A stretch of 64,000 nucleotides of DNA from Acidobacteriaceae bacterium. GTDB lineage: Bacteria; Acidobacteriota; Terriglobia; Terriglobales; Acidobacteriaceae. The DNA lies in assembly GCA_003134995.1 (NCBI GenBank), contig PLDC01000020.1:175-64174 (forward strand). Reading direction: 5' to 3'. This document shows, piece after piece, positions 4,441 through 18,508 of this stretch (its first letter is position 1; every line of letters starts with the position of its first letter). Made by a program: the position numbers and the translations under genes. The notes below the pieces were generated by a model, which worked only from the letters and a program-made list of their open reading frames with translations, was not told where the DNA came from and searched no databases.

Positions 4441-4731
4441 ATGCTAAGGGTCACGGTTGTCGAATCGTCAAGAAGGACCGTCACCCTTCGGGTAGAAGGT
4501 CGGATAACGGGTGCTGCGGTCGAGGAACTCCGCAGAGCATGCGATGTGCATACTTTCGCCGAGGAGGTTCAATTGTCCCTCGAGCTGGCGGACGTTTCAT
4601 TCGTGGATGCCGCAGGTATCGTACTCCTCAAGGAACTGCGAAGTCGTGGTGTCGGTCTTATGCGAGCTAACCCGTTTATGGCCGAACAACTCAAAGATGG
4701 GACATCATCTGACGAATCTAGAGTCACTTGA
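4441..4731 (+). CDS. STAS-domain protein (anti-anti-sigma-like) without the phosphorylatable serine
   Basis: This 96-residue protein has the beta-strand/helix pattern of a STAS domain. The diagnostic segment is SFVDAAGIVLL at 53-63. In SpoIIAA-type antagonists this region reads D-S-S-G and the first Ser is phosphorylated by an anti-sigma kinase. Here it is D56-A57-A58-G59, so that switch appears absent. An AGGAG about 15 nt upstream supports the ATG. It precedes an ECF sigma gene by about 160 bp and may modulate a regulatory partner, but no kinase partner lies in the window. Confidence 0.7.
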   Translation: MLRVTVVESSRRTVTLRVEGRITGAAVEELRRACDVHTFAEEVQLSLELADVSFVDAAGIVLLKELRSRGVGLMRANPFMAEQLKDGTSSDESRVT

Positions 4732-4894
4732 GGAGTGAAATGGCATCTCGGACGACGGCCTAGGCATTTCCCTCGACGATTTAGAAATCCGCTTTCCTCA
4801 ATGTGGGAAAGGTTCTCAGTTAATTGACGCCGGACGAACTGGCGCGTCGGGGTGGGCTGCAACCGTGCGTCCGCGCTGACTCAGGAAAACGCAA

Positions 4895-5515
4895 ATGGGG
4901 AATATTGGACTTGGCTCACAAGCGATGGTCCGATTCGGGGCTTCGTCCTCGCGGGACGATCAACCGTTGGCAGGATTCGAAGATTTAGCCATGCCCCTGT
5001 TTGATTCCCTTTACAACTTCGCGCGCTGGCTGACACAAAATTCGAATGATGCCGAGGATCTGGTACAGGAAACCTATCTTAAGGCTTTGCGCAGTTTCGC
5101 CTCGTTTCAGTCCGGCACCAATTTCCGCGCATGGATCTTTCAAATCCTCAGAAACAGCTTCCTAAGTTCGCGTTCGAAACTCGAGCTGCGCATGACCGTT
5201 GCCATGGATCCGGAAGAGGATGGACCTGAACTAGCAGTTGATATGGAAACTCCCGAAGCGATTCTCATGAATCGCTCTGATTCGGAACTCCTGCAGCGTG
5301 CCATCGAGCACCTGCCGGTGCATTACCGGGAGACCCTCCTTCTTTGCGAAGTGGAGGAGATGTCGTACCAGGAGATCGCGGACATATTGGCGATTCCGAT
5401 AGGAACCGTTATGTCGCGGCTGGCCAGAGCCCGGAAGGCAGTTCGTGAGTCACTTCTTAGCGCGCCCTGCGCACCGTTGTCGACGGAGTTGTCTCATCAG
5501 ATCGATACGCATTAG
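4895..5515 (+). CDS. ECF RNA polymerase sigma factor
   Basis: This 206-residue protein has sigma region 2 (about 30-100, with the conserved DAEDLVQETYLKAL helix and FRAWIFQILRN) and region 4 (about 130-190, with an EEMSYQEIADIL helix-turn-helix and GTVMSRLARAR). It is a close paralogue of the sigma factor at 7049-7591. AGGA lies about 10 nt before the ATG. It ends 15 nt before the response regulator gene, so the two are probably co-transcribed. No anti-sigma gene is adjacent. The GGAATAA-type promoter found upstream of neighbouring genes is not visible here. Confidence 0.92.
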   Translation: MGNIGLGSQAMVRFGASSSRDDQPLAGFEDLAMPLFDSLYNFARWLTQNSNDAEDLVQETYLKALRSFASFQSGTNFRAWIFQILRNSFLSSRSKLELRMTVAMDPEEDGPELAVDMETPEAILMNRSDSELLQRAIEHLPVHYRETLLLCEVEEMSYQEIADILAIPIGTVMSRLARARKAVRESLLSAPCAPLSTELSHQIDTH

Positions 5516-5530
5516 GAAAAGGAAAAGCTT

Positions 5531-6277
5531 ATGGCAGCCACCACCTTGGCAGCGACCTCGAACCCTCCAACATCTGTCCTGCGATCGGCTCCAACGGAGC
5601 GGATTTTGGTTATCGAGCACGATGGCGCGTTGCGGAAGGTTCTGCAGCGGCTTTTTTCCTCGGAAGGATATGAGGTCGACGTCGCCTTCGATGCAGTGTG
5701 CGGTTTGGAGAGACTTCGCCAAGAAGTGCCAGCCGCAGTAATCCTCGATCTGCCGCGTCCCGGATCTTCGGGGTGTGATCTTTGCAGGGAGATTGCGAAT
5801 TTGGTTCCCGGTGTACCCCTGGTAATTCTGAGCGCGAGTTCAAATGTCACCAACAAGGTCCTTCTTCTCGAAATGGGTGCCGACGATTACGTGACCATAC
5901 CGTTCAGCCCGCGGGAACTCGTTGCACGTCTGCGCGCGTTAACAAGGCGTGCGTCTCGCTTCAGTCCGGAGGACACAGACGTACATGTCTTTGCGGATGT
6001 GGTGGTGGATTTTTTCAAGACCGAAATCACTCGTGGCGGCGAGAAAATCACAGTTACTCGAAAGGAATTTAAGACGCTGGAATTCCTGACAAAGAACGCA
6101 CAACGCGTGATCTCGCGCGAGGAACTTCTCAATGAAGTTTGGGGCTACCAGAACTACCCCTACACGCGGACGGTGGACAACCACATGCTGAGGCTACGAC
6201 AGAAACTCGAGAACGACCCTTCACGCCCGTCACACTTTCTTACGGTATACGGCCAGGGTTATAAGTTTTTGCCTTAA
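5531..6277 (+). CDS. OmpR/PhoB-type response regulator with a degenerate receiver
   Basis: This 248-residue protein has a receiver domain (about 24-140) and a winged-helix DNA-binding domain (about 150-247, ending in the usual VYGQGYKFLP). The acceptor Asp is present at D73. The invariant Lys of the DDYxxKPF motif is Ile (I123 in DDYVTIPF), and the acidic pair near the N-terminus reads E29-H30. Typical phosphorylation switching needs these residues, so the protein probably works without phosphorylation or with altered activation. No histidine kinase is adjacent. It follows the ECF sigma gene by 15 nt and converges on the anti-sigma gene with 13 bp between them. Confidence 0.88.
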   Translation: MAATTLAATSNPPTSVLRSAPTERILVIEHDGALRKVLQRLFSSEGYEVDVAFDAVCGLERLRQEVPAAVILDLPRPGSSGCDLCREIANLVPGVPLVILSASSNVTNKVLLLEMGADDYVTIPFSPRELVARLRALTRRASRFSPEDTDVHVFADVVVDFFKTEITRGGEKITVTRKEFKTLEFLTKNAQRVISREELLNEVWGYQNYPYTRTVDNHMLRLRQKLENDPSRPSHFLTVYGQGYKFLP

Positions 6278-6290
6278 GGCGAATGTCAAT

Positions 6291-7037
6291 CTATGACGCA
6301 GCTTTAAACAATTTCGTAAGACTATCGATGTCCGCAGCACTCGCATCGCTGATCACGAAATAGCGAAGGCCGCCTTGACTCCATGTTTCCAGGTTGAATG
6401 GCAGTTGCTTAGGCGAAAGAGAGTTTTCGTCCAGCTTGGCTGGCAGTGAGCGTTCCTGGAACACGAACACGGAAATATGGTGCTTCCGCACATCGTAAAT
6501 GAGATGTGCGCCCGGCGTTTGATCAAGATAGGTCATTCGACCACCAAGCAGAGAGAACTCTGTGTTCTGGAGTTCCGGCAAATTGAACGCGAAGGGAATT
6601 TTTCCCTGGAACCAAGGCTTCACCGTGTGCCGATCGGTGGAGATCACATCCACTGGAGATGAACTGGCCAAGGTTGCCACGTGCAAGTCCGCAATCTCGC
6701 TAAATAACTGATCTCTGGATCGAGTTCCTAGATAGGCTGAAGTCAACGTGCCGGCCACGAGAATGATTGCTGCCGCCGCAGCTAACGTCCATCTCAGACC
6801 AAAGCTTCTCTGCGGTTTTGGCGCAATCTTCTGCTGTATCCGCTTCCGGAACTCAGCGCTGGGAGTAAAACGTCTTCCAGCGTCTTGAATCGCGCGCCTC
6901 ATCTGCACGCGCGCAAGAGCATCCACCGAGCACGAGGGACAGCTACGCACATGAGCGTCGAAGCTGTGCATCTCCTCCTCTGGAACCTCAGCGTCAAGGT
7001 AAGTGTCGAGTTTTGCCTTCCAAGATTCACAAACCAT
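6291..7037 (-). CDS. Membrane anti-sigma factor with ZAS zinc finger
   Basis: This 248-residue protein has an N-terminal zinc-binding anti-sigma domain with C3, H29, C33 and C36 (the HxxxCxxC arrangement). A membrane segment follows at about 80-103, then a C-terminal domain of about 140 residues that would lie outside the membrane. The cytoplasmic finger should hold the sigma factor encoded immediately upstream (11-nt gap) inactive until an envelope signal releases it. The extracytoplasmic half resembles no sensor I can name. The operon's promoter carries the same motif as the neighbouring exported-protein genes, which implies autoregulation. Confidence 0.9.
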   Translation of the reverse strand: MVCESWKAKLDTYLDAEVPEEEMHSFDAHVRSCPSCSVDALARVQMRRAIQDAGRRFTPSAEFRKRIQQKIAPKPQRSFGLRWTLAAAAAIILVAGTLTSAYLGTRSRDQLFSEIADLHVATLASSSPVDVISTDRHTVKPWFQGKIPFAFNLPELQNTEFSLLGGRMTYLDQTPGAHLIYDVRKHHISVFVFQERSLPAKLDENSLSPKQLPFNLETWSQGGLRYFVISDASAADIDSLTKLFKAAS

Positions 7038-7048
7038 AAGTCACCATT

Positions 7049-7591
7049 TTAGTTCGTCCCCCTTACAAACTGTTGCTGTAGGCCACCGCGCAGCGCTTTT
7101 CTGGCACGGGATAAACGGGACATCACCGTGCCCATTGGGATGGCGAGAGCGGCAGAGATTTCCTGGTAGGACATTTCTTCAACCTCGCACAGCAGCAGGA
7201 TCTCGCGGTAGGCGACTGGCAGTTGCTCCAGGGCCTGCTGCACGAGCTGCCCGTCCGAACGCTGCAGCAAAATGCTCTCTGGTGTTTCCTCGATCGCGGG
7301 CAAGGCTCCCTCTTCGTCCTCAAGGTCGAGCGGCACGGTAGCGGTCGCCTTCAGCCCGGTACGGGAGGTCAGAAACGCATTCCGCAGGATCTTGTAGATC
7401 CAGGCGCGAAAATTCGTGCCCGACTTGAACGAGGAAAAACCCTTAAGCGCTTTGGCATAAGTCTCCTGCACCAGATCCTCGGCTTCTTGCCGGTCATGTG
7501 TTAGCCAGCAGGCGAAGTTATAGAGCCGCTCGAAATGAGGCATGGCTAATTGCTCGAACGACTCCGGTGGCAGGTTCTCTCCGACATGCAC
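7049..7591 (-). CDS. ECF sigma factor, first gene of a sigma/anti-sigma operon
   Basis: This 180-residue protein has region 2 (EAEDLVQETYAKALKGF, FRAWIYKILRN) and region 4 (EEMSYQEISAAL, GTVMSRLSRARKAL), closely similar to the sigma factor at 4895-5515. Its anti-sigma gene follows by 11 nt. The upstream promoter (7598-7625) matches the motif found before six nearby genes, so this is the best candidate to read that motif. The GTG at 7591 lies only 7 nt beyond the -10 element, giving a near-leaderless transcript. An in-frame ATG at 7543 (MPHFERLYNF) would keep region 2 intact and give a leader of about 50 nt, but its Shine-Dalgarno is weak, so the start is uncertain. Confidence 0.92.
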   Translation of the reverse strand: MHVGENLPPESFEQLAMPHFERLYNFACWLTHDRQEAEDLVQETYAKALKGFSSFKSGTNFRAWIYKILRNAFLTSRTGLKATATVPLDLEDEEGALPAIEETPESILLQRSDGQLVQQALEQLPVAYREILLLCEVEEMSYQEISAALAIPMGTVMSRLSRARKALRGGLQQQFVRGTN

Positions 7592-7597
7592 ACAAGC

Positions 7598-7625
7598 GTA
7601 AACCAGCGGATGATCGTTTTATTCC
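7598..7625 (-). promoter_or_regulatory. ECF-type promoter of the sigma/anti-sigma operon
   Basis: On the minus strand, GGAATAAAA (7625-7617) is followed by GTTTAC (7603-7598). The first G of each element are 22 nt apart, as in the six plus-strand promoters nearby. It lies back to back with the promoter at 7649 and suggests autoregulation. Confidence 0.75.
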
Positions 7626-7648
7626 CATAGCCCACAAAAAAATACCAC

Positions 7649-7676
7649 GGAATAAAACCGAGTGTCGCCGGTTCTG
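7649..7676 (+). promoter_or_regulatory. ECF-type promoter before the secreted-protein gene at 7770
   Basis: GGAATAAAA (7649-7657) and GTTCTG (7671-7676) have the shared 22-nt phase. The leader would be about 85 nt. It is divergent from the sigma operon promoter. Confidence 0.7.
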
Positions 7677-7769
7677 CACAACGAGTCAGAGAGCGAACTG
7701 GAGCCACCGGCGAGAATGATGGTGCGGAAGAACCACACGCTCTGTAGCAATTCCTTCAGGAGGAACAAA

Positions 7770-8618
7770 ATGAAAAACAATCTGAAAATGTTTGGCTTGG
7801 CGCTGTGCGTGCTGCCGATGTATCTGCATGCCGGAACAGGACAGGATCTGAAACAGGCGTCTCAGCCTACTCAACAGCAGAATGCAGGATACGGAGTCGC
7901 CATTCCGGCGGGCACCATTCTTCCTATCAGCCTGAATTCCACCTTGCGCTCGGACAAAAGCGGAAGCGGAGCTGCTATCACCGCGACGGTGATGCAGGAC
8001 GTGCCCCTAGGCAGCGGAGAAACGCTACGTAAGGGATCCAAGGTGACAGGCCATGTGGTCGAAGCCACGACTCCGGGGAAGGGATCTGACGAATCAAAGA
8101 TCTCATTTCAATTCGACCAAGTGCAATTTGGCAACCAGACCATCCCGATTACCACCAACTTGCGTGCGGTAGCGTCCAGGTCTGCAGTACTCGCTGCCAC
8201 ACCTCAGCTAACCTCGCCCGATTATGCCGATAACCAAATTCAAATCGGAGGCGACCAGATTTCCTACGGTGAAGGTGGGCCAGTAATGGTGGGAGAGCAG
8301 GTTGTTGGGAAATACACCAGGCAGGGCGTGCTCGCCTATGTGGACGATTCGGGCACACCATCACGGGACACGAACAATCAACATGCTCATCTGCAGGCGT
8401 TTTGGCTCTTCTCAATAAATGCCCGCGGCGCATACGGATTTGATGACCTCACAATTCCCCAAGCCGGACGCAGCGAGCCGCTTGGTGAAGTCACTTTGGC
8501 CTCCAGCAGGAAAGCCCTGAAGCTCGACAAAGGCATTGCGATGCTGTTGCGTGTGGATGGCAGCGGACCCGACGCGGCGCAGGCTCTCACACATTCTGCG
8601 CAAGGGATAGGGCAGTAA
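7770..8618 (+). CDS. Secreted protein of unknown function with a VirB10/TrbI-like stretch
   Basis: The start is the ATG at 7770, just behind a strong CAGGAGGA (7758-7765); the frame runs open further upstream but has no ribosome site there. The 282 residues begin with a signal peptide (about 1-24, ending near HAGTGQ). The segment GVAIPAGTILPISLNSTLRSD recalls the conserved strand of TrbI/VirB10 proteins, but the rest does not match that family well and no conjugation genes are present. I place it with conserved acidobacterial secreted proteins without assigning a role. It has its own ECF-type promoter and a terminator-like hairpin after the stop. Confidence 0.7.
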   Translation: MKNNLKMFGLALCVLPMYLHAGTGQDLKQASQPTQQQNAGYGVAIPAGTILPISLNSTLRSDKSGSGAAITATVMQDVPLGSGETLRKGSKVTGHVVEATTPGKGSDESKISFQFDQVQFGNQTIPITTNLRAVASRSAVLAATPQLTSPDYADNQIQIGGDQISYGEGGPVMVGEQVVGKYTRQGVLAYVDDSGTPSRDTNNQHAHLQAFWLFSINARGAYGFDDLTIPQAGRSEPLGEVTLASSRKALKLDKGIAMLLRVDGSGPDAAQALTHSAQGIGQ

Positions 8619-8624
8619 CGAGTT

Positions 8625-8676
8625 CGCGGGTTGCGGCGCAGTCAGTTTCGTCCAATCAGGTTCGCCGCAGCCCGCG
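8625..8676 (+). terminator. Terminator-like hairpin
   Basis: A 14-bp GC-rich stem pairs 8625-8638 with 8663-8676 with a single T-G wobble and a 24-nt loop. The downstream T content is only moderate. It lies 7 nt after the secreted-protein stop codon. Confidence 0.6.
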
Positions 8677-8730
8677 ATTCATTTCTCAAGCCCATCGAAC
8701 CACCGCAGGAGAATCTTCTTTAGGCAGCCT

Positions 8731-8758
8731 GGAATAAAAGATCAGAAACTCAGTTATC
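8731..8758 (+). promoter_or_regulatory. ECF-type promoter of the porin gene
   Basis: GGAATAAAA (8731-8739) and GTTATC (8753-8758) are in the same 22-nt phase as the other copies. The start codon is 43 nt past the -10 element. Confidence 0.75.
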
Positions 8759-8800
8759 TCCACTGAAACTCATGCAACTCAAAATTGGGGAGAGATACAC

Positions 8801-10783
8801 ATGAGACAAGCAGGAATGGCATTGGCCGTGTGCTTTATGGTTAGCGCTTTCGCGGCCGGGCAGTCGAGTAACGCACTGGGCAGCAGCAAGAAGAAGTCCA
8901 GTTCCGAGGCGGTGGCAGTTCGTTTGGCAGAAATGCAGAAGGCAATTGAGGCTCAACAACAACAGATCCAGCATTTGGTGGAACAAGTGCAAAGTCGCGA
9001 CAGTCAGATCCAAGATCTGCAACAACGGATGAATCAGGTGCAAACCTCGGCTTCGCAGGCGCAACAAGCCGCTGAGGCTGCAACTTCGCAAAATACACAG
9101 GTGGAGCAGAACATTACGGCGATCCGTAGTGACGTAAGCGGCCTCAAAGGTACCGTAGGCGACACTGCGCTGGCGTTGCAGGAGACACAGAAGAACGTGA
9201 ATGCTGCGATAGAGAGCCCCTTGGCTCTCCATTACAAAGGCATCACGATCACTCCCGGCGGCTTCCTGGCGGCGGAATTCGTGAGGCGATCCAGAGCGCT
9301 GGCCGCCGACGTCAACACTCCCTTCAATTCACTTACTATGCCGGGAGCATCGCAAAGCAGCCTCTCGGAATTCTTCGGTTCGGGGCGCCAGTCGCGCATC
9401 TCCATGCTGGCCGAGGGACGGTTGCAAAGCGCGAAGCTTTCCGGGTACGTGGAAGCCGATTTTCTGTCGGCAGGCGCGACTTCGAACAACAACGAGAGTA
9501 ATAGCTACTCACTGCGTCAACGCCAAGCCTTCGGGCAAGTCGCACTCGACAATGGTTTCACCTTCACGGGCGGGCAGATGTGGAGCCTGGTTACCGAGAC
9601 AAAGCATGGTGTGGATAACCGCACTGAAGCTGTTCCCATGACGATCGACGCGCAGTATAACGTCGGCTTCAGTTGGGCCCGGCAGTATGGGCTTCGCATA
9701 GCCAAGAGCTTCAACAACAAGGCCTGGTTCGCGGTGTCGGTAGAAAACCCGCAAGCCACTTTGACCACTCACAACAACGGTGACAATTTTCTATTGGGCT
9801 CCGCCGGCGCCAGTGGTGGACTTTTCAATGCCGCCGCCACCAGCGCCGGTGCCAACATCGCCAATTATTCCTTTAATCCTTCGCCTGATGTCATCGCGAA
9901 GCTGGCCCTTGAACCCGGCTTCGGACACTACGAAGTGTTCGGAGTGTATAGCCGATTCCGCGACCGCGTATTTCCCTGCGGCGAGGTAGCCAGCAGCACG
10001 ACGCTTTGCGGCGGTAGCTCGGTTGCTGGCCCGAACGCTCTCGGAGCTAACAACGCCTCGAAAAATGGCGGAGGTGTTGGTGCGAATGCCCGCTGGTCGT
10101 TCGACCACAAGCACATCGACTTCGGTCTGCACGCTTTTGGCGGCAGCGGAGTGGGCCGTTATGGCACCGGCGGCCTTCCCGATGCTTCGATCCACGCGGA
10201 CGGCACTCTCGATCTGATCAAGAGTTACCAAGCTCTGGGAACTCTCGAGTGGCATGGGTCGAAGTTGGACGTTTACATGAACGCAGGCTCTGAGTACGCC
10301 GGCCGGGCATCTGATTTCGATCCTACCTCGGGGAAATTCGTCGGCTACGGATCGCCCATTTTCAACAATACCGGCTGCTTCACTGAAATCGCTCCTACAG
10401 TCAACAACGGTTTCACTCCTGCGGGCCTTTCGAACTGCACGGCCGACACGCGTGTGCTGATCGAAGGCACCTTCGGCATCTGGTTCAAGCCGTATGACGG
10501 CTCAAGAGAAAAGGTGAACCGCGGCCGAATCCAATGGGGGCCGCAGTTCTCCTATGTCGAGCGCAATACATGGTCGGGCGTGGGCGGGGAGCCGCACGGG
10601 CTGGATGCAATGATCTTCACTTCGTTCCGCTACTACCTTACCGTAGCGTGTGCGAGCCTCACTCCCGCGTTTGCTCTCTCCTTTTCGCGCGGGGGTGAGG
10701 TTTTTTTGTCGCTGGCACGAATTGGGATTGAAACGAACGCTCGCTACGAACAGGCAAATCTAGGAGAGGTATGGCGATGGTAA
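8801..10783 (+). CDS. Outer-membrane porin with N-terminal coiled coil; 3' end probably frameshifted
   Basis: The 660-residue ORF starts behind GGGGAGAG. It has a signal peptide (about 1-21), a Gln-rich coiled coil (about 40-125) and a beta-rich porin domain (from about 145), the layout of DcaP-like trimeric porins. The last strand should end the protein near FRYYL (residue 615). Instead the frame runs on for about 45 residues, straight through a strong terminator hairpin and over the start of the next gene. Removing one base near 10637-10641 would give FRYYLP and a TAG stop, so the tail is probably an artefact or a recent mutation. Role: passive uptake across the outer membrane, substrate unknown. 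Confidence 0.8.
   Translation: MRQAGMALAVCFMVSAFAAGQSSNALGSSKKKSSSEAVAVRLAEMQKAIEAQQQQIQHLVEQVQSRDSQIQDLQQRMNQVQTSASQAQQAAEAATSQNTQVEQNITAIRSDVSGLKGTVGDTALALQETQKNVNAAIESPLALHYKGITITPGGFLAAEFVRRSRALAADVNTPFNSLTMPGASQSSLSEFFGSGRQSRISMLAEGRLQSAKLSGYVEADFLSAGATSNNNESNSYSLRQRQAFGQVALDNGFTFTGGQMWSLVTETKHGVDNRTEAVPMTIDAQYNVGFSWARQYGLRIAKSFNNKAWFAVSVENPQATLTTHNNGDNFLLGSAGASGGLFNAAATSAGANIANYSFNPSPDVIAKLALEPGFGHYEVFGVYSRFRDRVFPCGEVASSTTLCGGSSVAGPNALGANNASKNGGGVGANARWSFDHKHIDFGLHAFGGSGVGRYGTGGLPDASIHADGTLDLIKSYQALGTLEWHGSKLDVYMNAGSEYAGRASDFDPTSGKFVGYGSPIFNNTGCFTEIAPTVNNGFTPAGLSNCTADTRVLIEGTFGIWFKPYDGSREKVNRGRIQWGPQFSYVERNTWSGVGGEPHGLDAMIFTSFRYYLTVACASLTPAFALSFSRGGEVFLSLARIGIETNARYEQANLGEVWRW
10657..10707 (+). 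terminator. Rho-independent terminator inside the annotated porin 3' end
   Basis: A 13-bp stem pairs 10657-10669 (CCTCACTCCCGCG) with 10688-10700, with one T-G wobble, and is followed by seven T (10701-10707). Its position just past the expected porin stop supports the frameshift interpretation. Confidence 0.85.
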
Positions 10784-11226
10784 ATCCCTTTGATCTTAAG
10801 ACGGCCCTTCTGGCCAAGCATGCGCAACATGTCGTCCTGATCCATTTTCCAATCGGTTTGTTCATCACGGCAGTGGCCTTCGACCTTATCGCGCAATGGA
10901 CGAAGCGACGTGGCTTGGCGCAGGCAGCCTACTACAATCTGCTGGCGGCGGCTATTTCAACTGTTCCGGTCCTCATTACTGGGCTACTCGCGTGGCAGTT
11001 CCAACTCGAAGGACAGAAGCTGAAGGGCATTCTATTGCTGCATCTGGTTCTGGCGTGTGTTTCGACGGTGATGATCTGGCTGGTGTGGTGGGTGCATTTC
11101 CACGCACGACGAAAGACAGTTTACTTGCCGGCCTACCGTTTGGTGCTCGAAGTTTTGGCGGTTGGCATTGTGGCGCTAACTGGGCATTTAGGCAGCTTTC
11201 TCAGCGGCGTAAACCTGCCAGGTTAA
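10771..11226 (+). CDS. DUF2231 family integral membrane protein
   Basis: This 151-residue protein has four predicted membrane helices (about 21-42, 52-72, 84-108, 124-145). The N-terminal KHAQHVVLIHFPIGLF stretch matches the His-rich first helix of DUF2231 proteins, a family of unknown function sometimes linked to haem or redox. GGAGAGG lies just before the ATG at 10771. It overlaps the run-on end of the porin frame by 13 nt. If the terminator at 10657 is used, read-through from the porin promoter would be limited and its own promoter is unidentified. Confidence 0.85.
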   Translation: MAMVNPFDLKTALLAKHAQHVVLIHFPIGLFITAVAFDLIAQWTKRRGLAQAAYYNLLAAAISTVPVLITGLLAWQFQLEGQKLKGILLLHLVLACVSTVMIWLVWWVHFHARRKTVYLPAYRLVLEVLAVGIVALTGHLGSFLSGVNLPG

Positions 11227-11514
11227 ATGGCCACTCATCTTAATTCATAATTGCCCAGCTTACGAATCCTTATGCTTGGTCTCGCGCCCAAACCTCTTAG
11301 CTCAGACCACAGCAGGTCACTCGACGATTATTTTCTCGGCAGCTCTGCCAAGCCAGTCCGCAACATTCTCCAGCGCACCACAGAAAAATCTTTTACCAAA
11401 ACCTAACAGAGCTGTGACCTCCCGCTGACAACACGCAAATGTTGCCAAGGTACATTCCTCACCACGGCACACAAACAGACTGTCGGAGAGAAGAAATTTA
11501 CAGCGCAATATGCG

Positions 11515-11542
11515 GGAATAAATCCTTCACTTGCCGGTTATC
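11515..11542 (+). promoter_or_regulatory. ECF-type promoter of the delta-60 repeat protein gene
   Basis: GGAATAAA (11515-11522) and GTTATC (11537-11542) keep the 22-nt phase. The -10 context is CGGTTATC, identical to the copy at 14365. The leader would be about 55 nt. Confidence 0.75.
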
Positions 11543-11603
11543 AGCCTTGGTAGATTGTCTGCCTGTGACCAAAATCAAACTTGAAACTAAAAAGGAAAAA
11601 GCA

Positions 11604-12881
11604 ATGAGGAAAACTGTATTTCATATGATCGCCGGACTACTAGCAATTGGCCTGGTGTTTGGCATTAATCGGTCAGAAGCCCAGGCCGGCACTCTTGACC
11701 CAACCTTCGGCAATGGTGGCACGGTTACCACCAGCTTCGCCAATGGCTCCGCAGGAGTGGGCAGCTTTGAACAATCAAATGGCGACATCGTGGCGGTCGC
11801 CCAAGTCGACTTTGTGGAAAACGAAGGCACCGGAATCGGTTTGGTGCGCTACACCTCAACCGGAGCGCTGGATACCACGTTTGGCACGAACGGGATTACG
11901 AACACCACATTCGCCGGCTTCACCTTCACTCCGTTCGGATTTGCGGTGCAGACGAATGGCGACATCCTGGTTGCAGGAGAGGCCATAAGCAGCGCAGGGC
12001 GGATTGAATTCGGACTCGCGCGGTACACGTCCAACGGCATTCTGGATGCCACGTTCGGAAACGGAGGCCTGGTGACCACCGTTGTAGGCACGCGGACCGA
12101 CGTTCCCACCGCCATGCTGCTGCAACCCAACGGAAAAATCGTGATGGCCGGCTTCGAGGTTGCCCAGGAAGGGGTTGCTCCCGGAAAGATGTCGATGGTG
12201 CGCTACAACTCGAGCGGCAGCCTGGACACCACGTTTGGCACGGGCGGAATCTCGCTGGTGACTGACACAATCACAGGGCCCGATGCGCTTGCGCTGTTGT
12301 CGAACGGCGACTACCTGGCCGTGGGGCAGAGTGGAAGTGGCAAGACAGGCATAGCAGTGGAGTTGAACTCCAAGGGTGTGCTGCTAGTGAAGGTGACGGC
12401 GGGAACATTGACGGCTGCCCTGTCGTCTTCGCAGAGCGGCTTTTCTCCGACCATTTTCCAGGCGAACGGCGACTACATTGTGGCGGTGACGAGCTGCACC
12501 AATGATTCGCAGTGCCGGGGACACAAGATCGGCGTGAGCCGCTTCCTCGAAACAGGGAAAGTGGATACAAGCTTCAACGCCAACTCCTTCGAATCGTTCG
12601 ACCCGCCCGCGACGACTTCAGTGGGGACGGCAATGGCTCTGCAAGCGAATGGGCAGATCGTGGTCGGCGGCTTGATTTCGCCAACTCAAGGCGGCATGGC
12701 GCGTCTCGATGCAAATGGCGAGCTGGATACCACCTTCGGTACCACCAACTCGTTTGGCGGCTGCTGCACCGTGACCAGTGAGCAGACGTTCACAGGTCTT
12801 CTGATCCAGACAGATGGAAACATCGTTGCCATCGGAGAGCTAGACGGAGATCTGGCGTTGGCTCGGTACCTGGCGAACTAA
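11604..12881 (+). CDS. Secreted delta-60 repeat (beta-propeller-like) protein
   Basis: The ATG at 11604 (MRKTVFHMIAG) follows an AAGGAAAAA ribosome site; upstream codons in frame overlap the promoter. The protein has 425 residues, a signal peptide (about 1-27) and at least six LDxTFGxxG repeats spaced about 50-70 residues apart (the delta-60 repeat, TIGR02608). Each repeat has the form LDPTFGNGG followed by an NGDIxVAG-like strand. These repeats usually form propeller-like exported proteins whose function is unknown. It is monocistronic behind its own ECF-type promoter. Confidence 0.88.
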   Translation: MRKTVFHMIAGLLAIGLVFGINRSEAQAGTLDPTFGNGGTVTTSFANGSAGVGSFEQSNGDIVAVAQVDFVENEGTGIGLVRYTSTGALDTTFGTNGITNTTFAGFTFTPFGFAVQTNGDILVAGEAISSAGRIEFGLARYTSNGILDATFGNGGLVTTVVGTRTDVPTAMLLQPNGKIVMAGFEVAQEGVAPGKMSMVRYNSSGSLDTTFGTGGISLVTDTITGPDALALLSNGDYLAVGQSGSGKTGIAVELNSKGVLLVKVTAGTLTAALSSSQSGFSPTIFQANGDYIVAVTSCTNDSQCRGHKIGVSRFLETGKVDTSFNANSFESFDPPATTSVGTAMALQANGQIVVGGLISPTQGGMARLDANGELDTTFGTTNSFGGCCTVTSEQTFTGLLIQTDGNIVAIGELDGDLALARYLAN

Positions 12882-12987
12882 CCGGCTGTAAGTGAGAAGC
12901 GGTTCCGTCAGAAGCCTGCGTAGGTCAATGAAATTGTTCTCTGAGCAAAACATTTTCTTGGCCTGCGTTTCTCCCTCGATGTTGTCG

Positions 12988-13015
12988 GGAATAAAAGTAG
13001 CTCGTGCGAGTTATC
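12988..13015 (+). promoter_or_regulatory. ECF-type promoter of the WAVG-repeat protein gene
   Basis: GGAATAAAA (12988-12996) and GTTATC (13010-13015) keep the 22-nt phase. The start codon is about 52 nt downstream. Confidence 0.75.
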
Positions 13016-13066
13016 AAACCCTTAGTAAGAGTTGTCAAATTTAACAAAAACTATTCAGGAGGAATT

Positions 13067-14242
13067 GTGAAACTTACGTTTAACGCGGTGATGTTTCTAG
13101 GATTGGCGCTTGGCGCAGTTCAAAGCGTGCCGGCGATCGCCCAAGCCAACGCAGGCTCGACATTTCAGGTAGTCCCAACACCCAACGGGAACAAGGCCAA
13201 CAGCAGCATCTTTGCTGCATCGGCATCTTCCGCCACCGACATTTGGGCGGTAGGAGATTCGACGATGCACTTCGACGGCACCAAGTGGACAGCTTTCGCC
13301 GCACCGTTGATTAATGGCGAGCTTACTGCGGATCTCCAGGGCGTCGTCGACATTTCTTCCACAGAGGCCTGGGCCGTGGGTAATGTAACCCTGGGAGCGA
13401 ATCCCGGCCAGATCATCGAAAAATGGGACGGAACCAAGTGGAGCCTGTTCCCGAATCCCACGCTCCTGCCGAATTCTCAAGGGGATCTTTTCGCCATGAC
13501 CTCGACTTCGGCGACTGACATTTGGGCCGTCGGCAATCTGGTGCAAACCTTTTCAAATGGCGGCTCCACAAGCTACAACCTTTTTGAGCACTGGGACGGC
13601 ACGTCATGGACGCCCACCTTTATTAACACTGCTGGGTTCGAGGGTCTCACTGGCGTGTCCGCAGACGCCACCAACGATGCCTGGGCGGTGGGCGATAACG
13701 GCGGTTCAACTCTTGCAATTCACTGGAATGGCGCAAAATGGGCCGCTGTAGCGACTCCAGATAACTTAGGCGAGGGACCAAACCAGCTCAATGCCGTGGT
13801 GGCATTGGCTCCAGACAACGCATGGGCAGTAGGCTATTCCACGCCGGGTCTTGCAGGACAATCTGCCACGCTCACGTTGATTCTGCACTGGGATGGCACG
13901 ACTTGGTCGATAGTGCCAAGCCCGAATGTTGGGCCGAATAGCACAAGTCAGTCGAACCGCCTGCTTGGAATCACGGCGAATTCGGCCGATGACATTTACG
14001 CTTTCGGTTCTTACTTCGCGGCCGATGGATCCGGACATCAGATGACGCTGCTTCTGCATTGGGATGGAACCAGTTGGACGATTGTTACCAGTCCCAACCC
14101 GACGAAGGGCAATTTCCTCGATGATCTTCTGTTTGCTGGAGTTGTACCGGCACCCGGCAACGTGTGGATTTTCGGAAATGAGGATGAAGGGGCTCAGGGC
14201 GGCATGGGGACTTTGGCAATCCATTCCACAACTGCGAAATAA
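13067..14242 (+). CDS. Secreted protein with seven WAVG/WDGTxW repeats, predicted beta-propeller
   Basis: The start is the GTG at 13067 (VKLTFNAVMF), set by CAGGAGG at 13056-13062. The 391 residues have a signal peptide (about 1-26). Seven units follow, each with a D-x-WAVG strand (last ones IYAFG and VWIFG) and most with a HWDGTxW strand. Seven units suggest a seven-bladed propeller. I recognise the repeat style from acidobacterial and actinobacterial secreted proteins but not a function; binding outside the cell is inferred. It has its own ECF-type promoter and a terminator. Confidence 0.8.
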   Translation: MKLTFNAVMFLGLALGAVQSVPAIAQANAGSTFQVVPTPNGNKANSSIFAASASSATDIWAVGDSTMHFDGTKWTAFAAPLINGELTADLQGVVDISSTEAWAVGNVTLGANPGQIIEKWDGTKWSLFPNPTLLPNSQGDLFAMTSTSATDIWAVGNLVQTFSNGGSTSYNLFEHWDGTSWTPTFINTAGFEGLTGVSADATNDAWAVGDNGGSTLAIHWNGAKWAAVATPDNLGEGPNQLNAVVALAPDNAWAVGYSTPGLAGQSATLTLILHWDGTTWSIVPSPNVGPNSTSQSNRLLGITANSADDIYAFGSYFAADGSGHQMTLLLHWDGTSWTIVTSPNPTKGNFLDDLLFAGVVPAPGNVWIFGNEDEGAQGGMGTLAIHSTTAK

Positions 14243-14268
14243 GCCGCATTTTCACCCTATGAGTTGAG

Positions 14269-14296
14269 AAGGCGGACAGAAGAAGCCCGCCTTTTT
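14269..14296 (+). terminator. Rho-independent terminator
   Basis: A 7-bp stem (AAGGCGG, 14269-14275, with CCGCCTT, 14287-14293) is followed by T residues to 14296. It separates the WAVG protein gene from the promoter at 14345. Confidence 0.75.
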
Positions 14297-14344
14297 GACT
14301 TCGCCGACATCGCGAAAGTTTCTGAAGTTTGTTCGTTTCAAGTG

Positions 14345-14372
14345 GGAATAAAAGCGACTCGCTCCGGTTATC
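14345..14372 (+). promoter_or_regulatory. ECF-type promoter of the phosphoesterase-cupredoxin genes
   Basis: GGAATAAAA (14345-14353) and GTTATC (14367-14372) keep the 22-nt phase. The phosphoesterase ATG is 32 nt past the -10 element. Confidence 0.78.
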
Positions 14373-14403
14373 CACTGAGAACGTCACAAACCACGGAGGA
14401 CAA

Positions 14404-15381
14404 ATGCCAGACAAAAAGCAAGACCTTATCGATCAGAGTTTGCAAGACCTTAATAACGACGGCGTCGACCGGCGCGGATTTCTGAAATGCATGGCATGGG
14501 CAGGTACCGGCCTTGTCTGGACCATGAGCGGCGGGGTCCCGGTGTCGCGGGCATTCTCCAAGGGTTACGGCAAGGATGCCGGCAAAGGCGCGGACTTTAC
14601 CTTTGTACAGATCAGCGACAGCCACATCGGGTTCAACAAGCCGGCGAATCCAGACGTCACCGCTACCTTACAGACGGCAATCAACAAAATCAATGCGATG
14701 CCACAGAAGCCGGACTTCATCATCCACACCGGAGATTTGAGCCAGCTCTCGAAGCCAAGTGAGTTCGATACGCTCGACCAGGCCCTAAAAAGTGCGTCTG
14801 CGAAACAGATTTACTTTGTGCCAGGCGAGCACGACATGCTCTCCGACAACGGCGATCAATATCTTCAGCGTTATGGCAAGGGAACTAAAGGATCGGGGTG
14901 GTACAGCTTCGATCACAAGGGCGTGCATTTTGTTGGCTTGGTGAACGTAGCCAACCTGAAGGCAGGCGGCATGGGGTCGCTCGGACATGAGCAGTTGGAG
15001 TGGCTTGAGGACGATCTACATGGACGCTCGGCCAGCACTCCGATCGTGCTCTTTGCTCACATTCCGCTGTGGACAATCTATCCGGATTGGGGCTGGGGCA
15101 CCGACGACAGCGAACAGGCTTTGTCCTACGTGAAGCGTTTTGGCTCAGTGACGGTGTTGAACGGCCATATTCACCAGATCATGCAGAAGGTTGAGGGCAA
15201 GGTCTCATTCCACACCGCGATGTCGACGGCTTTTCCTCAACCTGCGCCGGGGACTGCGCCTTCGGCGGGTCCGATGAAAGTGCCGGCTGAACAGTTGCAG
15301 CGGGTGTTGGGGATTACGGATGTGAATTACATGGTGAGTGGTCGCAGCCTCGCGGTGGTTGATTCGCCGCTGGGCAGCTAA
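14404..15381 (+). CDS. Tat-exported metallophosphoesterase
   Basis: The ATG at 14404 follows ACGGAGGA; codons upstream in frame overlap the promoter. The 325 residues begin with a twin-arginine signal (R23-R24 in DRRGFLK). The calcineurin-like metal-binding motifs are in order: SDSH (D72, H74), HTGDLS, PGEHD in place of the usual GNHD, FAHIP and NGHIHQ. The enzyme would hydrolyse a phosphoester in the periplasm with two metal ions; the substrate is unknown. A cupredoxin gene follows after 66 nt, probably in the same transcript. Confidence 0.9.
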   Translation: MPDKKQDLIDQSLQDLNNDGVDRRGFLKCMAWAGTGLVWTMSGGVPVSRAFSKGYGKDAGKGADFTFVQISDSHIGFNKPANPDVTATLQTAINKINAMPQKPDFIIHTGDLSQLSKPSEFDTLDQALKSASAKQIYFVPGEHDMLSDNGDQYLQRYGKGTKGSGWYSFDHKGVHFVGLVNVANLKAGGMGSLGHEQLEWLEDDLHGRSASTPIVLFAHIPLWTIYPDWGWGTDDSEQALSYVKRFGSVTVLNGHIHQIMQKVEGKVSFHTAMSTAFPQPAPGTAPSAGPMKVPAEQLQRVLGITDVNYMVSGRSLAVVDSPLGS

Positions 15382-15447
15382 TTCAGTATCCGATCAGCAG
15401 CAAAGGAACGTGCAGTAAATAGCGCATATCGAGATTTAGAAAGGAAA

Positions 15448-15810
15448 ATGATCATGACGAAGAACAAGCTTTGGATTTCAGGCGTAGCGGTGCCGGTACT
15501 GATTGCGATGATGCTATTGGCATTGTCCTCTCGCGTCACTGCGAATGCCGAACCTTCAGCGCCAGCAGCTGCGGTAAAAATCGATAATTTCGTATTCGGA
15601 CCTCAGGCGCTCACGGTGCCAGTCGGAACGACTGTCACCTGGACTAACAGTGACGACATTCCTCATACCTCGGTCAGCACAGAGGGGGTGTTCAAGTCGA
15701 AGGTGCTGGATACGGATGAAAAGTTCTCCTACACGTTTACCAAGGCGGGAACGTATCCCTACTATTGCACGATCCACCCGAAGATGACCGGCAAGATCGT
15801 CGTGCAGTAA
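15448..15810 (+). CDS. Exported cupredoxin (plastocyanin/amicyanin-like)
   Basis: This 120-residue protein has a signal peptide (about 1-33) and one type-1 copper domain. The ligands are H73 in IPHTS, then C107, H110 and M113 in the loop CTIHPKM. The short C-x2-H-x2-M loop is typical of amicyanin-like cupredoxins, so it probably carries electrons in the periplasm; no redox partner is adjacent. GAAAGGA precedes the ATG. It appears to share the phosphoesterase promoter and ends before a hairpin. Confidence 0.9.
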   Translation: MIMTKNKLWISGVAVPVLIAMMLLALSSRVTANAEPSAPAAAVKIDNFVFGPQALTVPVGTTVTWTNSDDIPHTSVSTEGVFKSKVLDTDEKFSYTFTKAGTYPYYCTIHPKMTGKIVVQ

Positions 15811-15822
15811 ACACACTTTCTA

Positions 15823-15853
15823 AGCAGGGTCGAAGTGATTTTTCGATCCTGCT
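15823..15853 (+). terminator. Hairpin between cupredoxin and sigma genes
   Basis: A 12-bp stem pairs 15823-15834 with 15842-15853 with one G-T wobble and a 7-nt loop. No T tract follows, so it may be a weak terminator, a processing site or an attenuator that reduces read-through into the sigma gene. Confidence 0.5.
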
Positions 15854-15871
15854 GCAAGCAGGGTGAACACT

Positions 15872-16555
15872 ATGAGCGCAAGCGTAACCCAATTCGATGT
15901 AACCGCGCAAATGAATGACGACATGGACCTAGTCCATGCCTGTAAAAATGGCGACGTTGCCGCCTTCGAGCAACTGGTGAAGCGCTACGATCGCAAACTC
16001 TTCCGCATCGCCCAGAGCGTCACCCATAACCGGGAAGATTCGCAGGATGCGGTGCAGGAAGCTTTTCTGAAGGCCTACCAGCACTTGGCCGACTTTCGAG
16101 AAGCTTGCCTGTTCTCAACCTGGCTGATTCGTATCACGGTGAACCAATCGCTGATGAAGCTGCGCAAGCAGCGCGGTACAAAAGAAATGTCTCTCGATGA
16201 TGATTTTGAAAACGACGAGGGAGATTTCCTGCCAAAGGAAGTCACGGATTGGTCTCCTAATCCTGAACAGCTTTGCTGGGCCTCTGAATTGAAAAGCATT
16301 CTGGTAGAGGCTTTGAAGGATCTTGAACCCATCTCGCGGACGGTTTTCGTCTTGCGCGACATTGAAGGTCTTTCCATCGACCAAACCGCCGAAGTGCTGA
16401 ACATGAGCAACTCCGCAATCAAGGCGCGGCTATGGAGAGTTCGCCTGCAGCTTCGTGAACGGCTGAGCAAACGCTTCGGCGTCCAAAAAGATAATGAGCA
16501 GTTAGGCTCCAGTGCTTTACAAAGCGATGCGACCAGCGCTTCTGCCTGCTCATAA
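15872..16555 (+). CDS. ECF RNA polymerase sigma factor (RpoE-like)
   Basis: This 227-residue protein has region 2 (about 22-95, with NREDSQDAVQEAFLKAY and FSTWLIRITVNQ) and region 4 (about 140-200, with DIEGLSIDQTAEVLNMS and AIKARLWRVRLQLRERL). It is more distant from the other two sigma factors than they are from each other. The ATG at 15872 follows GCAGGG; a GTG 9 nt earlier is possible. No anti-sigma gene is adjacent. It follows the cupredoxin gene by 61 nt across a hairpin, so it may be read from the ECF promoter at 14345, which would form a sigma cascade. Confidence 0.9.
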   Translation: MSASVTQFDVTAQMNDDMDLVHACKNGDVAAFEQLVKRYDRKLFRIAQSVTHNREDSQDAVQEAFLKAYQHLADFREACLFSTWLIRITVNQSLMKLRKQRGTKEMSLDDDFENDEGDFLPKEVTDWSPNPEQLCWASELKSILVEALKDLEPISRTVFVLRDIEGLSIDQTAEVLNMSNSAIKARLWRVRLQLRERLSKRFGVQKDNEQLGSSALQSDATSASACS

Positions 16556-16841
16556 CGACCAGCACGGCCGCGAATAGTAGCAATATCCCAATCCACTCAA
16601 TGTTCTTCTCCGAGTGTCCCGATCCCTCGACCTATTAGACGCGCCCGAGTTGTCCCCTTTTTAGTTATTTCGTGCTAACCACAAACGACACGGCCCTGCG
16701 GTGTGCACTGCATGTTACGACGTGGCGACAAACAGTTGACAATCAAATGACATCATTCACGTATCCCTGCTCATAAGTACCGCGTCCAACGTACATAGGT
16801 TGTGAAACATAGTTGATGAACCGGCCTTTAGACACATTGCT
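16556..16841. other. Intergenic stretch without a recognisable gene
   Basis: This part of the 353-bp gap between the sigma gene and the secreted-protein gene has no credible ORF, RNA or terminator that I can see. The ECF-type promoter at 16842 closes it. Confidence 0.5.
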
Positions 16842-16869
16842 GGAATAACGTCATAAGAGGGCAGTTCTC
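16842..16869 (+). promoter_or_regulatory. ECF-type promoter of the small secreted-protein gene
   Basis: GGAATAA (16842-16848) and GTTCTC (16864-16869) keep the 22-nt phase. The A-run is shorter than in the other copies. The start codon is 40 nt past the -10 element. Confidence 0.65.
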
Positions 16870-16908
16870 AACATAAATACTTCGCGACACTTCAACAAAG
16901 GAGAACTT

Positions 16909-17316
16909 ATGAATAGGTTTTACGTAGTCGCCGTACTTACACTGACGTGCCTGCTTGGTGTGGGTGTAGAAGCTCATGCTCAAGACGCCGAGATCAGTGT
17001 AACGGTTCCATTTGAGTTTGTGGCTGGAGGCCAGACTCTTCCTGCGGGCCAGTACATCGTTGGCCGCACCTCCGCCGATGCGCATTCAGGCATAACAATC
17101 CGCAGCTACAACAATGTCGCACTCATGCTCCCCATTGTCGTTGATGAAACTCCTGCTTACCAACCGAAGCTTAGCTTTGTGCGTGTTGGCGGCGAGTACT
17201 GTCTCAGCAAGGTTGAGGCACCGCAAGGTATCTACACCTTTAGGGCACCACGCGCGATGGTCATGCTAGCACAGAAGAAGGACCAATCCTCCGTGTCTTC
17301 CGCTGGCGGGAACTAA
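16909..17316 (+). CDS. Small secreted protein, acidobacterial VPFxFxxG family
   Basis: This 135-residue protein starts behind AAAGGAGA and has a signal peptide (about 1-25, cleavage near AHAQD). The mature part begins with VTVPFEFVAGG and LPAGQYIV, a pattern I recognise from many short secreted acidobacterial proteins of unknown function. It is predicted to be beta-rich. The thiO gene starts 45 nt later, so the ECF-type promoter could also feed the thiamine operon; no separate promoter or riboswitch is visible between them. Confidence 0.75.
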   Translation: MNRFYVVAVLTLTCLLGVGVEAHAQDAEISVTVPFEFVAGGQTLPAGQYIVGRTSADAHSGITIRSYNNVALMLPIVVDETPAYQPKLSFVRVGGEYCLSKVEAPQGIYTFRAPRAMVMLAQKKDQSSVSSAGGN

Positions 17317-17360
17317 GTCGGGCACAGCATTGGCATTTATACGGTTGCGGTGGGGAGTTC

Positions 17361-18508
17361 ATGGATAAAAAGCAAGTTAGTCGACCTGAACTCCCCCTTC
17401 ATCCGGCTACTTTGCCCTTTCGAACAACACTGTTATCGGGTGGCGGCTTGCTAGGCCGGCTTCTGGCATGGCGCGCGTCCAGAACCGGCCTGCTTGTTGC
17501 TCTCTATGACGCAGCTAGTCGTTCTGGAGAAGATTCTGCCGCGTGGGCCGCAGCCGGAATGATTACTCCTTCGGCAGAGGCAGTTGATGCCGACCCGGAA
17601 ATCGTAGCGATGGGGCGGCGCAGCCTGAACCTGTGGCCGCGGTGGCTCGCCGAATTACCAGAGCCGGTTTTCTATCGTGATGACGGAACTCTCCTGCTCT
17701 GGCATCGCGAGGATGCAGGGGAGGCACGTCGCTTCGAGAGACTCCTCGCAAGGCGCGACGCGTCGGCGCATCTGGTTCACGTGGATGCGGCTCGGCTCAC
17801 TCAGATGGAACCGGCACTCGATTCAAGGTTTCAGCAATCGCTGTATCTTCCTGGCGAGGCGCAGATTGACAATCGGGCCCTGCTGAAGACTCTCGCCCTC
17901 GCGCTCGAAGAAGCAGGTGTCCAGTGTCACTGGCAAACGTTTGTGGCGGCGGATGCGCTGCCCGCTGCGGGCATCGTCGTAGACTGCCGCGGTATGGGTG
18001 CGCGCCAGGATTTATCGCAACTACGTGGCGTTCGCGGCGAAATTGTACGTCTCGATGCGCCGCACGTGGAATTGCGCCACATGCTGCGCCTGCTGCACCC
18101 GCGGTTTTCCGTGTATGTGGTACCTCGTGCCGAGGGCAAGCTGGTTGTCGGGGCCACCAGCATCGAGAGTGACGATCGCTCTCCGATGTCAGTGCGCGGC
18201 GCATTGGAGTTGCTCACCTCTGCGTATTCCATACTACCGGCCCTAGCCGAGGCCCGCATCCTGGAGTTCACCACGCAGCTGCGACCAACCCTTCCCGACA
18301 ACCGGCCTGCGTTTTTCTATCATCTCGGAAAAACGTGCTGAGAATCAACGGGCTGTATCGTCACGGTTTTATGCTGTCGCCCGCAATCGTTGAGGAGGCA
18401 TTGCCCTTGCTATCCCGGCAACGGGAAGAATCATACACCGGGCGATGGTCCTGCCTGCGCATGTGTGCCCACGAGGTCGAGGAGGAACAAGCATGTCCGT
18501 CCTTGTAA
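17361..18508 (+). pseudogene. thiO: thiO, FAD-dependent glycine oxidase, frameshifted near the 3' end
   Basis: ThiO oxidises glycine to the imine used in thiazole formation. The uninterrupted frame (17361-18341, 326 aa) has a dinucleotide-binding N-terminus (LLSGGGLLGRLLAW, slightly degenerate) and DAO-family motifs such as RPTLPDNRP near 312. It then ends abruptly at FYHLGKTC. One extra A in the A5 run at 18329-18333 would restore the family C-terminus (NGLYRHGFMLSP) and extend the frame to 18508, giving about 382 residues, the normal ThiO length, with a 16-nt overlap onto thiS. Either a real mutation or a homopolymer sequencing error explains it. Without the tail the FAD domain would be incomplete. 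Confidence 0.85.

Follow-up and report, generated by a model that had tools for sequence, protein, structure and literature searches.

Two-part elements around an ECF sigma gene

The window described here is a stretch of 64,000 nucleotides from an Acidobacteriaceae bacterium (GenBank assembly GCA_003134995.1, contig PLDC01000020.1, positions 175 to 64,174 of the forward strand). It contains an operon for an extracytoplasmic function (ECF) sigma factor, designated S1, and an anti-sigma factor, together with seven copies of the two-part element GGAATAA-N15-GTT. One copy precedes the operon and the other six precede genes for predicted exported proteins. The operon and the elements are as follows, in window coordinates.

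7049..7591, minus strand: S1, ECF sigma factor with regions 2 and 4 (Sigma70_r2, Sigma70_r4_2) and a GTVMSRL recognition helix
6291..7037, minus strand: anti-sigma factor; zf-HC2, HxxxCxxC at residues 29–36, hydrophobic stretch at about 85–103, then a domain with HTVKPWF
7598..7625, minus strand: predicted S1 promoter of the sigma/anti-sigma operon; GGAATAAAA...GTTTAC, start codon 12 nt past the G of GTT; orthologues have the same element
7649..7676, plus strand: predicted S1 promoter of the divergent secreted-protein gene at 7770; the homologue in locus L128 has an element of 23-nt phase
8731..8758, plus strand: predicted S1 promoter of gene 8801; matrix score 23.1
11515..11542, plus strand: predicted S1 promoter of the delta-60 gene at 11604; matrix score 30.1
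12988..13015, plus strand: predicted S1 promoter of the WAVG gene at 13067; matrix score 21.8
14345..14372, plus strand: predicted S1 promoter of the phosphoesterase, cupredoxin, and S3 genes, probably a single operon; element present in orthologous promoters
16842..16869, plus strand: predicted S1 promoter, the weakest, of the small secreted-protein gene at 16909

The preliminary description of this DNA located the seven elements correctly. Their positions, strands, and first-G-to-first-G spacing of 22 nt are all exact, as are the −10 variants: GTTATC at 8731, 11515, 12988, and 14345, GTTCT at 7649 and 16842, and GTTTA at 7625 on the minus strand. Dinucleotide shuffles of the window contain the pattern 0.05 times on average, and none of 100 shuffles reached seven. 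The 5.62 Mb genome contains 16 matches, seven of them in the window, and 3 matches to a reversed-pattern control. When the spacer is varied from N5 to N25 (21 spacings), the genome contains 137 GGAATAA-GTT pairs, 16 of them at N15, and the reversed control gives 112 in all. Each of the other 20 spacings therefore accounts for about 6 matches, and the nine N15 sites outside the cluster are close to background. The tighter pattern GGAATAAA-N14-GTT occurs 8 times in the genome and its control 0 times.

A weight matrix was trained on 35 sites from other genomes, whose own scores start at 16.0; these sites were picked by the core, which therefore dominates the score. In a scan of the 64 kb, the seven elements rank first to seventh with scores of 30.1 to 18.6, and the next site scores 11.8. 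Among the 16 genome sites, nine reach at least 18.6: the seven of the window, a site directly upstream of a second S1 gene copy that is 84% identical to S1 (30.8), and a site beside a partial cupredoxin copy (25.5). The remaining seven score at most 18.3. Open frames of at least 100 residues, on either strand, cover six of these seven, but they also cover three of the nine high-scoring sites (11515, 14345, and the cupredoxin-copy site), making frame overlap weak evidence. The cupredoxin copy (L123, positions 7250–7550, on contig C10 of this genome) is 91% identical to residues 61–120 of the window cupredoxin and has an S1-type element upstream; it probably remains from a duplication of the target operon. 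A scan of window positions 7000–17400 for sigma-70-type promoters gave 0 matches, versus 5.3 on average in shuffles.

Conservation and spacing of the element in relatives

The element was followed in 61 genomes, 37 from the genus (the present one included) and 24 from other families; loci and genomes are numbered with L and G, respectively. An S1-like sigma factor, at an E value of 1e-30 or better, is found in 20 of the 61, which are 20 of the 37 genus members and none of the 24 others, a narrow distribution that is weighed below. Most S1-like loci have the element before the sigma gene, often paired with a copy on the other strand that would serve a divergent gene.

A sample chosen without regard to the motif consists of the 20 closest loci (L042–L060 and L066, at least 52% identity) among the best 80 of a protein-only scan for the sigma factor in named genomes. 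It includes Edaphobacter aggregans DSM 19364 (L057), a deposited strain, and a metagenome-assembled genome of Granulicella (L058). These loci span 274 kb and contain 51 distinct GGAATAA heptamers, of which 35 have GTT at 22 nt and 4 at 23 nt; every other distance from 10 to 40 nt occurs at most 3 times (mean 0.72). In 15 of the 20 loci, the sigma gene has the element no more than 260 nt before it. Across genomes, GGAATAAA-N14-GTT occurs 74 times in the 20 with S1 (control 16), 20 times in the 17 genus members without S1 (control 9), and 17 times in the 24 others (control 7). Its abundance within the genus, own genome left out, is associated with the presence of S1 (one-sided rank test, p = 2e-4, relatedness not corrected).

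The constant phase had been taken as a sign of a −35/−10 pair. The phase is exact in the window, but in relatives it is either 22 or 23 nt. A strict single phase is ruled out by L028, L029, L036, L047, L055, and L056, which have the element at 23 nt upstream of the sigma gene, and both phases occur side by side in L047, L054, and L055. A clade-specific phase was also rejected: the 22/23 label requires 6 changes on a quick tree with many open forks and long branches, so the phase is not a clean clade trait. A one-nucleotide spacer tolerance is likewise reported for SigH in a passage of PMC4803200. Overlapping divergent GGAATA elements precede a distant ECF gene at about 1540–1610 of L062, from Rokuibacteriota, and may point to an origin of the GGAAT...GTT code before Terriglobia.

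The elements lie very close to the sigma genes. The first in-frame ATG or GTG is found 8–17 nt past the G of GTT in 32 of 34 sigma promoters, a set that leaves out loci with no element (L048, L053, L060, L066, L040, and L041), loci with no upstream sequence (L031 and L043), and duplicates. The exceptions are L056 (TTG at 18 nt) and L057, E. aggregans (ATG at 92 nt). A word resembling a ribosome-binding site is missing before the start in 31 of the 32; L047 has one. ECF promoters usually start transcription about 10 nt past the G of GTT. Such a start would place the 5′ end of the sigma mRNA at or near the start codon, and the message is predicted to be nearly leaderless. For the other targets in the window, the distance from GTT to the start codon is 37–99 nt.

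These features bear on whether the elements could instead be a repeated element or an operator that happens to precede genes. The conservation in two parts with a varying spacer, the fixed phase, the orientation towards the gene, and, in 32 of 34 cases, a sigma start codon 8–17 nt away make this extremely improbable.

S1, its anti-sigma factor, and related systems

S1 displays the ECF layout, with sigma-70 regions 2 and 4 only (PF04542, 1.6e-14; PF08281, 1.4e-18). It scores 105 bits against TIGR02937, above the cut-off of 42.9, and 120.7 bits against the SigH_actino model TIGR02947, far under the cut-off of 251.55. The nearest native solved structure by profile is Mycobacterium tuberculosis SigH (5zx2), whose GTVMSRL helix aligns with that of S1; SigE chains have an arginine at the position of the methionine. 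In a single-sequence comparison, a SigE chain comes out slightly ahead of native SigH (95.9 versus 94.0 bits). The methionine of the S1 helix, M157, is invariant in all 15 aligned S1 proteins. According to passages of PMC10012870, Met170 of Corynebacterium glutamicum SigH lies against positions −31/−30 in a homology model, its change to arginine weakened the GGAAT promoters tested, and the reverse change in SigE was insufficient for reading GGAAT promoters. Met170 would correspond to M157 of S1. Judged by its residues, the −35 reading helix of S1, TVMSRL, is of the SigH type expected for GGAAT.

The gene for an anti-sigma factor with HxxxCxxC follows the S1 genes. In 29 aligned anti-sigma factors, the invariant residues include H29, C33, and C36 and, past the hydrophobic stretch, H119, H137-T-V-K-P-W-F143, and H186. 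The family zf-HC2 matches all 29 at an E value up to 0.01 and is the sole Pfam family common to all; three others match 2–4 of them. The hydrophobic stretch of the window protein is a 19-mer at residues 85–103 with a mean hydropathy of 1.95. The conserved HTVKPWF domain behind it is taken to lie outside the membrane. In a profile search against solved structures, this second domain has no match, and relatives were found for the N-terminal part only. A passage of PMC7406223 indicates that HxxxCxxC may be merely structural in membrane-bound anti-sigma factors.

The closest known systems are SigR of Streptomyces and SigH of Mycobacterium and Corynebacterium (ECF12), which share with the S1 system a GGAAT...GTT promoter, a zinc-finger anti-sigma factor, and, in SigH, the GTVMSRL helix. 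Passages of the respective papers give the promoter as GGAAT-N18-19-GTT for SigR (PMC9205884) and GGAAYR-N17-18-GTT for M. tuberculosis SigH (PMC4803200), and the C. glutamicum PtrxB1 promoter contains the GGAATAA heptamer itself (PMC10012870). The S1-system promoters are mostly GGAAT-N17-GTT, with N18 in some relatives.

The S1 system could thus be simply an actinobacterial SigR/SigH thiol-stress regulon residing in an acidobacterium. The shared element, the heptamer identical to that of PtrxB1, the SigH structure as nearest by profile, and weak matches of the anti-sigma factor to RsrA would all fit. However, the score of S1 against TIGR02947 is less than half the cut-off, the single-sequence comparison slightly favors SigE, and the spacer after the pentamer is 17–18 nt here versus 18–19 nt in SigR/SigH, so that the phase is one nucleotide shorter (22 nt, sometimes 23). 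SigR/SigH anti-sigma factors such as RsrA are soluble, redox-responsive proteins without a membrane helix, whereas the one described here has a membrane stretch and a further domain. The targets also differ, being exported proteins, and no gene for thioredoxin, a protease, or thiol synthesis is present among those whose families were looked up. We regard this explanation as very unlikely.

Two other systems resemble parts of this one. Proteobacterial ECF factors of the Escherichia coli RpoE type also pair a sigma factor with a membrane-bound anti-sigma factor over envelope genes, and their promoters, GGAACTT...GTC, have the 22-nt geometry. The S1 system differs from them in having GGAAT and GTT rather than GGAAC and GTC, in the presence of HxxxCxxC, and in a second anti-sigma domain that matches no solved structure. 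By profile, the N-terminal domain of the anti-sigma factor matches the anti-sigma factors DdvA (2.4e-6) and Bacillus subtilis RsiW (2.9e-6), and more weakly RsrA (1.4e-4). All these matches fall in the N-terminal part, within profile positions 1–77, and the sigma partners and targets differ.

The window also encodes a paralogue, S2, just beyond the anti-sigma gene. A STAS-domain gene, S2, and an OmpR-type response regulator lie in a row at 4441–6277; S2 has no adjacent anti-sigma gene on the same strand, and the S2–response regulator pair recurs in L128. S2 is 63% identical to S1 with a near-identical region 4 helix. The main reader of the promoters might therefore be S2, governed by the adjoining response regulator, or the 84% identical second copy of S1, which lies on another contig, or all three sigma factors might act jointly. 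Against this, the element stands directly before S1-type genes, whereas S2-type genes (S2 of the window, L041, and L060) group together and lack an upstream element. Moreover, S2 was recognized only in the present genome (G000) and G005 among the 61, with hits partly classified, whereas the element and targets occur in other S1 genomes. Reading mainly by a paralogue is accordingly considered unlikely. S1 is the best-supported reader, with part of the reading possibly done by S2 and the second S1 copy.

Targets and a proposed envelope-stress circuit

The remaining genes of the locus, in window coordinates, are the following; the signal-like N-termini are calls from simple hydropathy alone.

7770..8618, plus strand: secreted protein; signal-like N-terminus, TrbI match below cut-off
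8801..10783, plus strand: 660-residue frame, called a porin earlier (not confirmed); signal-like N-terminus, coiled-coil-like stretch
10771..11226, plus strand: DUF2231 membrane protein (PF09990); no element of its own in the window
11604..12881, plus strand: delta-60 repeat protein (TIGR02608, 2.2e-53; PF17164); signal-like N-terminus
13067..14242, plus strand: WAVG-repeat protein, assigned from its sequence; Pfam DUF2510 over one short stretch, signal-like N-terminus
14404..15381, plus strand: calcineurin-like phosphoesterase (PF00149, 5e-16); Tat-type N-terminus (DRRGFLKCMAWAG); most constant target in relatives
15448..15810, plus strand: cupredoxin (PF13473, PF00127); signal-like N-terminus
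15863..16555, plus strand: S3, another ECF sigma factor, 52 nt past the cupredoxin gene; best model PRK11922, below cut-off
16909..17316, plus strand: small protein; signal-like N-terminus
4895..5515, plus strand: S2, paralogous ECF sigma factor without the element, next to a response regulator; a possible second reader, not a target

Family models bear out the sigma factor, anti-sigma factor, delta-60 protein, metallophosphoesterase, and cupredoxin of the preliminary description, but not the porin, since frame 8801 matches no porin family above cut-off. The two proteins called secreted (7770) and small secreted (16909) likewise match no family above cut-off in the scan, despite their signal-like N-termini. 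The 3′ end of frame 8801–10783 crosses a terminator-like hairpin (10678–10695) and overlaps the start of the DUF2231 gene, so the true end of the gene may lie earlier.

The phosphoesterase gene is present in 18 of the 61 genomes. A 22-nt element lies upstream of it in all 13 that have S1 and in one of the five that do not (Fisher test, 0.0016, relatedness not corrected). The latter is G021, which is 76% complete. Two of the other genomes without S1, G003 and G051, lack a GGAATAA-GTT pair at the gene; in G013 and G029, 23-nt elements on both strands accompany a different ECF gene beside the phosphoesterase gene, and the anti-sigma factor of this different ECF in G029 also has the HTVKPWF domain.

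A survey of 52 related loci, with L051 added from a separate analysis and L124 dropped as a duplicate of L042, contains 31 distinct phosphoesterase loci. A 22- or 23-nt element lies close upstream in 26 of them, or in 21 of 26 when the motif-chosen L135, L138, L141, L148, and L149 are set aside. Four of the 31 phosphoesterases (L051, L136, L144, and L145) are distant, with 33–36% identity. A more distant ECF gene lies beside the phosphoesterase gene in L172, L173, and L175; L172 and L173 have 23-nt elements, and in L175 GGAATAAA is followed by GTC at 23 nt, as judged by eye.

Other genes also lie behind the element in relatives. Of 18 distinct loci with a DUF2231 gene, seven (L042, L046, L126, L133, L135, L141, and L149) have the element just before that gene. 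Further products are DoxX (L139), Ferritin_2 (L057 and L060), a di-heme peroxidase (DHOR, L060), PAP2 (L057), another cupredoxin (L138), an LVIVD-repeat protein (L125), and an outer-membrane barrel protein (L148). Fifteen such proteins were scanned; nine have a family, the ninth being the L051 phosphoesterase, and six have none, so this list is partial. Contrary to the earlier notion of a local regulon, the regulon is not strictly local: the second sigma locus and the cupredoxin remnant are unlinked to the cluster, and in G012, G014, and G018 the phosphoesterase operons and S1 are on different contigs, with the operons distant from contig ends.

In the window, S3 follows the cupredoxin gene. 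Its score of 181.8 bits against PRK11922 falls below the cut-off of 204, and its membership in the S1 family was rejected, as its highest identity in the tree is 30% on a long branch. Among 20 other distinct cupredoxin loci, seven (L046, L125, L128, L132, L133, L148, and L149) have the order phosphoesterase–cupredoxin–S3 as well, on the same strand with gaps of 17–103 nt; the S3 match in L133 is in two pieces. In L148, a small secreted-protein gene behind S3 also has the element. S3 would be co-transcribed with the phosphoesterase and cupredoxin genes, and from this gene order the phosphoesterase operon appears able to carry a second ECF sigma factor.

What is observed is the set of elements, the phase, and the retention of the element before orthologues of the sigma and target genes, both within the genus and in some further Terriglobia. 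The comparison of orthologous promoters proposed earlier thus finds the element kept in other genomes upstream of both. It is highly probable that the seven elements are −35/−10 pairs of one ECF sigma factor, S1, which, once released from its anti-sigma factor, would start its own operon and the exported-protein genes. The original suggestion that S1 reads the element and regulates itself gains support from the element before sigma and target orthologues, including 15 of the 20 protein-selected loci, and from the SigH-type helix. We judge this ECF regulon to be real and conserved, and probably autoregulated.

Several observations weigh against this reading, besides the restricted distribution of S1. 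No element precedes the sigma gene in L048, L053, L060, or L066; L043 is at a contig edge with almost no upstream sequence. The other 60 of the 80 loci from the protein-only scan, belonging to distant ECF factors (31–44% identity), contain 69 GGAATAA heptamers, with GTT at 22 nt in 6 cases and at 23 nt in 3 (mean of other distances 1.0), and this small excess indicates that the element is not exclusive to S1. In genomes without S1, the roughly twofold excess of GGAATAAA-N14-GTT over its control means that the control underestimates the background or that other ECF factors use a similar element. Two other sites of the present genome (18.3 and 16.6) fall within the range of the training scores, and the 16842 element (18.6) scarcely exceeds a genome site in open frames (18.3); its support comes from L148, where a homologue of its downstream gene has the element, while the homologue in L042 lacks it. 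No element lies close upstream of the phosphoesterase gene in L044, L056, L145, L175, and L176. The 8801, delta-60, and WAVG genes have no homologue in the 52 loci. Finally, the near-identical recognition helix of S2 and the second S1 copy imply that the reader of each promoter is not unique.

The mechanism by which S1 may act can be outlined as follows. The anti-sigma factor from the same operon would hold S1 at the membrane and would let it go when its outside HTVKPWF domain senses an envelope signal. S1 with RNA polymerase would then bind the elements and start transcription about 10 nt past the G of GTT, both at its own operon and at the divergent and downstream genes for exported proteins. 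The phosphoesterase operon could pass the signal on through the second sigma factor, S3. The signal is probably envelope redox or copper stress, because cupredoxins, a di-heme peroxidase, and ferritin-like proteins are among the products of genes that follow the element in relatives.

No description of the S1 regulon, or of any ECF regulon in Acidobacteriota, was found in the open-licence literature, in agreement with the earlier statement that none was known. The sole match for an acidobacterial ECF regulon concerns, by its title and the opening of its abstract, copper systems of marine bacteria. A search for GGAATAA together with a sigma factor and a promoter returned only the C. glutamicum paper (PMC10012870), and no paper joining an ECF sigma factor, a metallophosphoesterase, and a cupredoxin was found in the same literature. 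Since the element is of the known SigR/SigH type, this would be a new regulon of a known kind. A more specific proposal is offered tentatively and is open to considerable doubt: one genus and some other Terriglobia would possess an envelope-stress circuit so far undescribed, in which H119, H137, and H186 belong to an outside domain that detects a metal or oxidant and thereby releases a sigma factor translated from a nearly leaderless mRNA; exported redox proteins would follow and, in some of these genomes, a relay ECF sigma factor.

Acidobacteriota are common soil bacteria. The promoter code, the sigma/anti-sigma pair, the core target (a Tat-type phosphoesterase, often with a cupredoxin), and the deposited strain E. 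aggregans DSM 19364 together provide a testable system. Two of its predictions are specific and can be checked: a sigma message that is nearly leaderless, and a second sigma factor behind the core target. If the former is true, the sigma mRNA may be favored for translation under stress.

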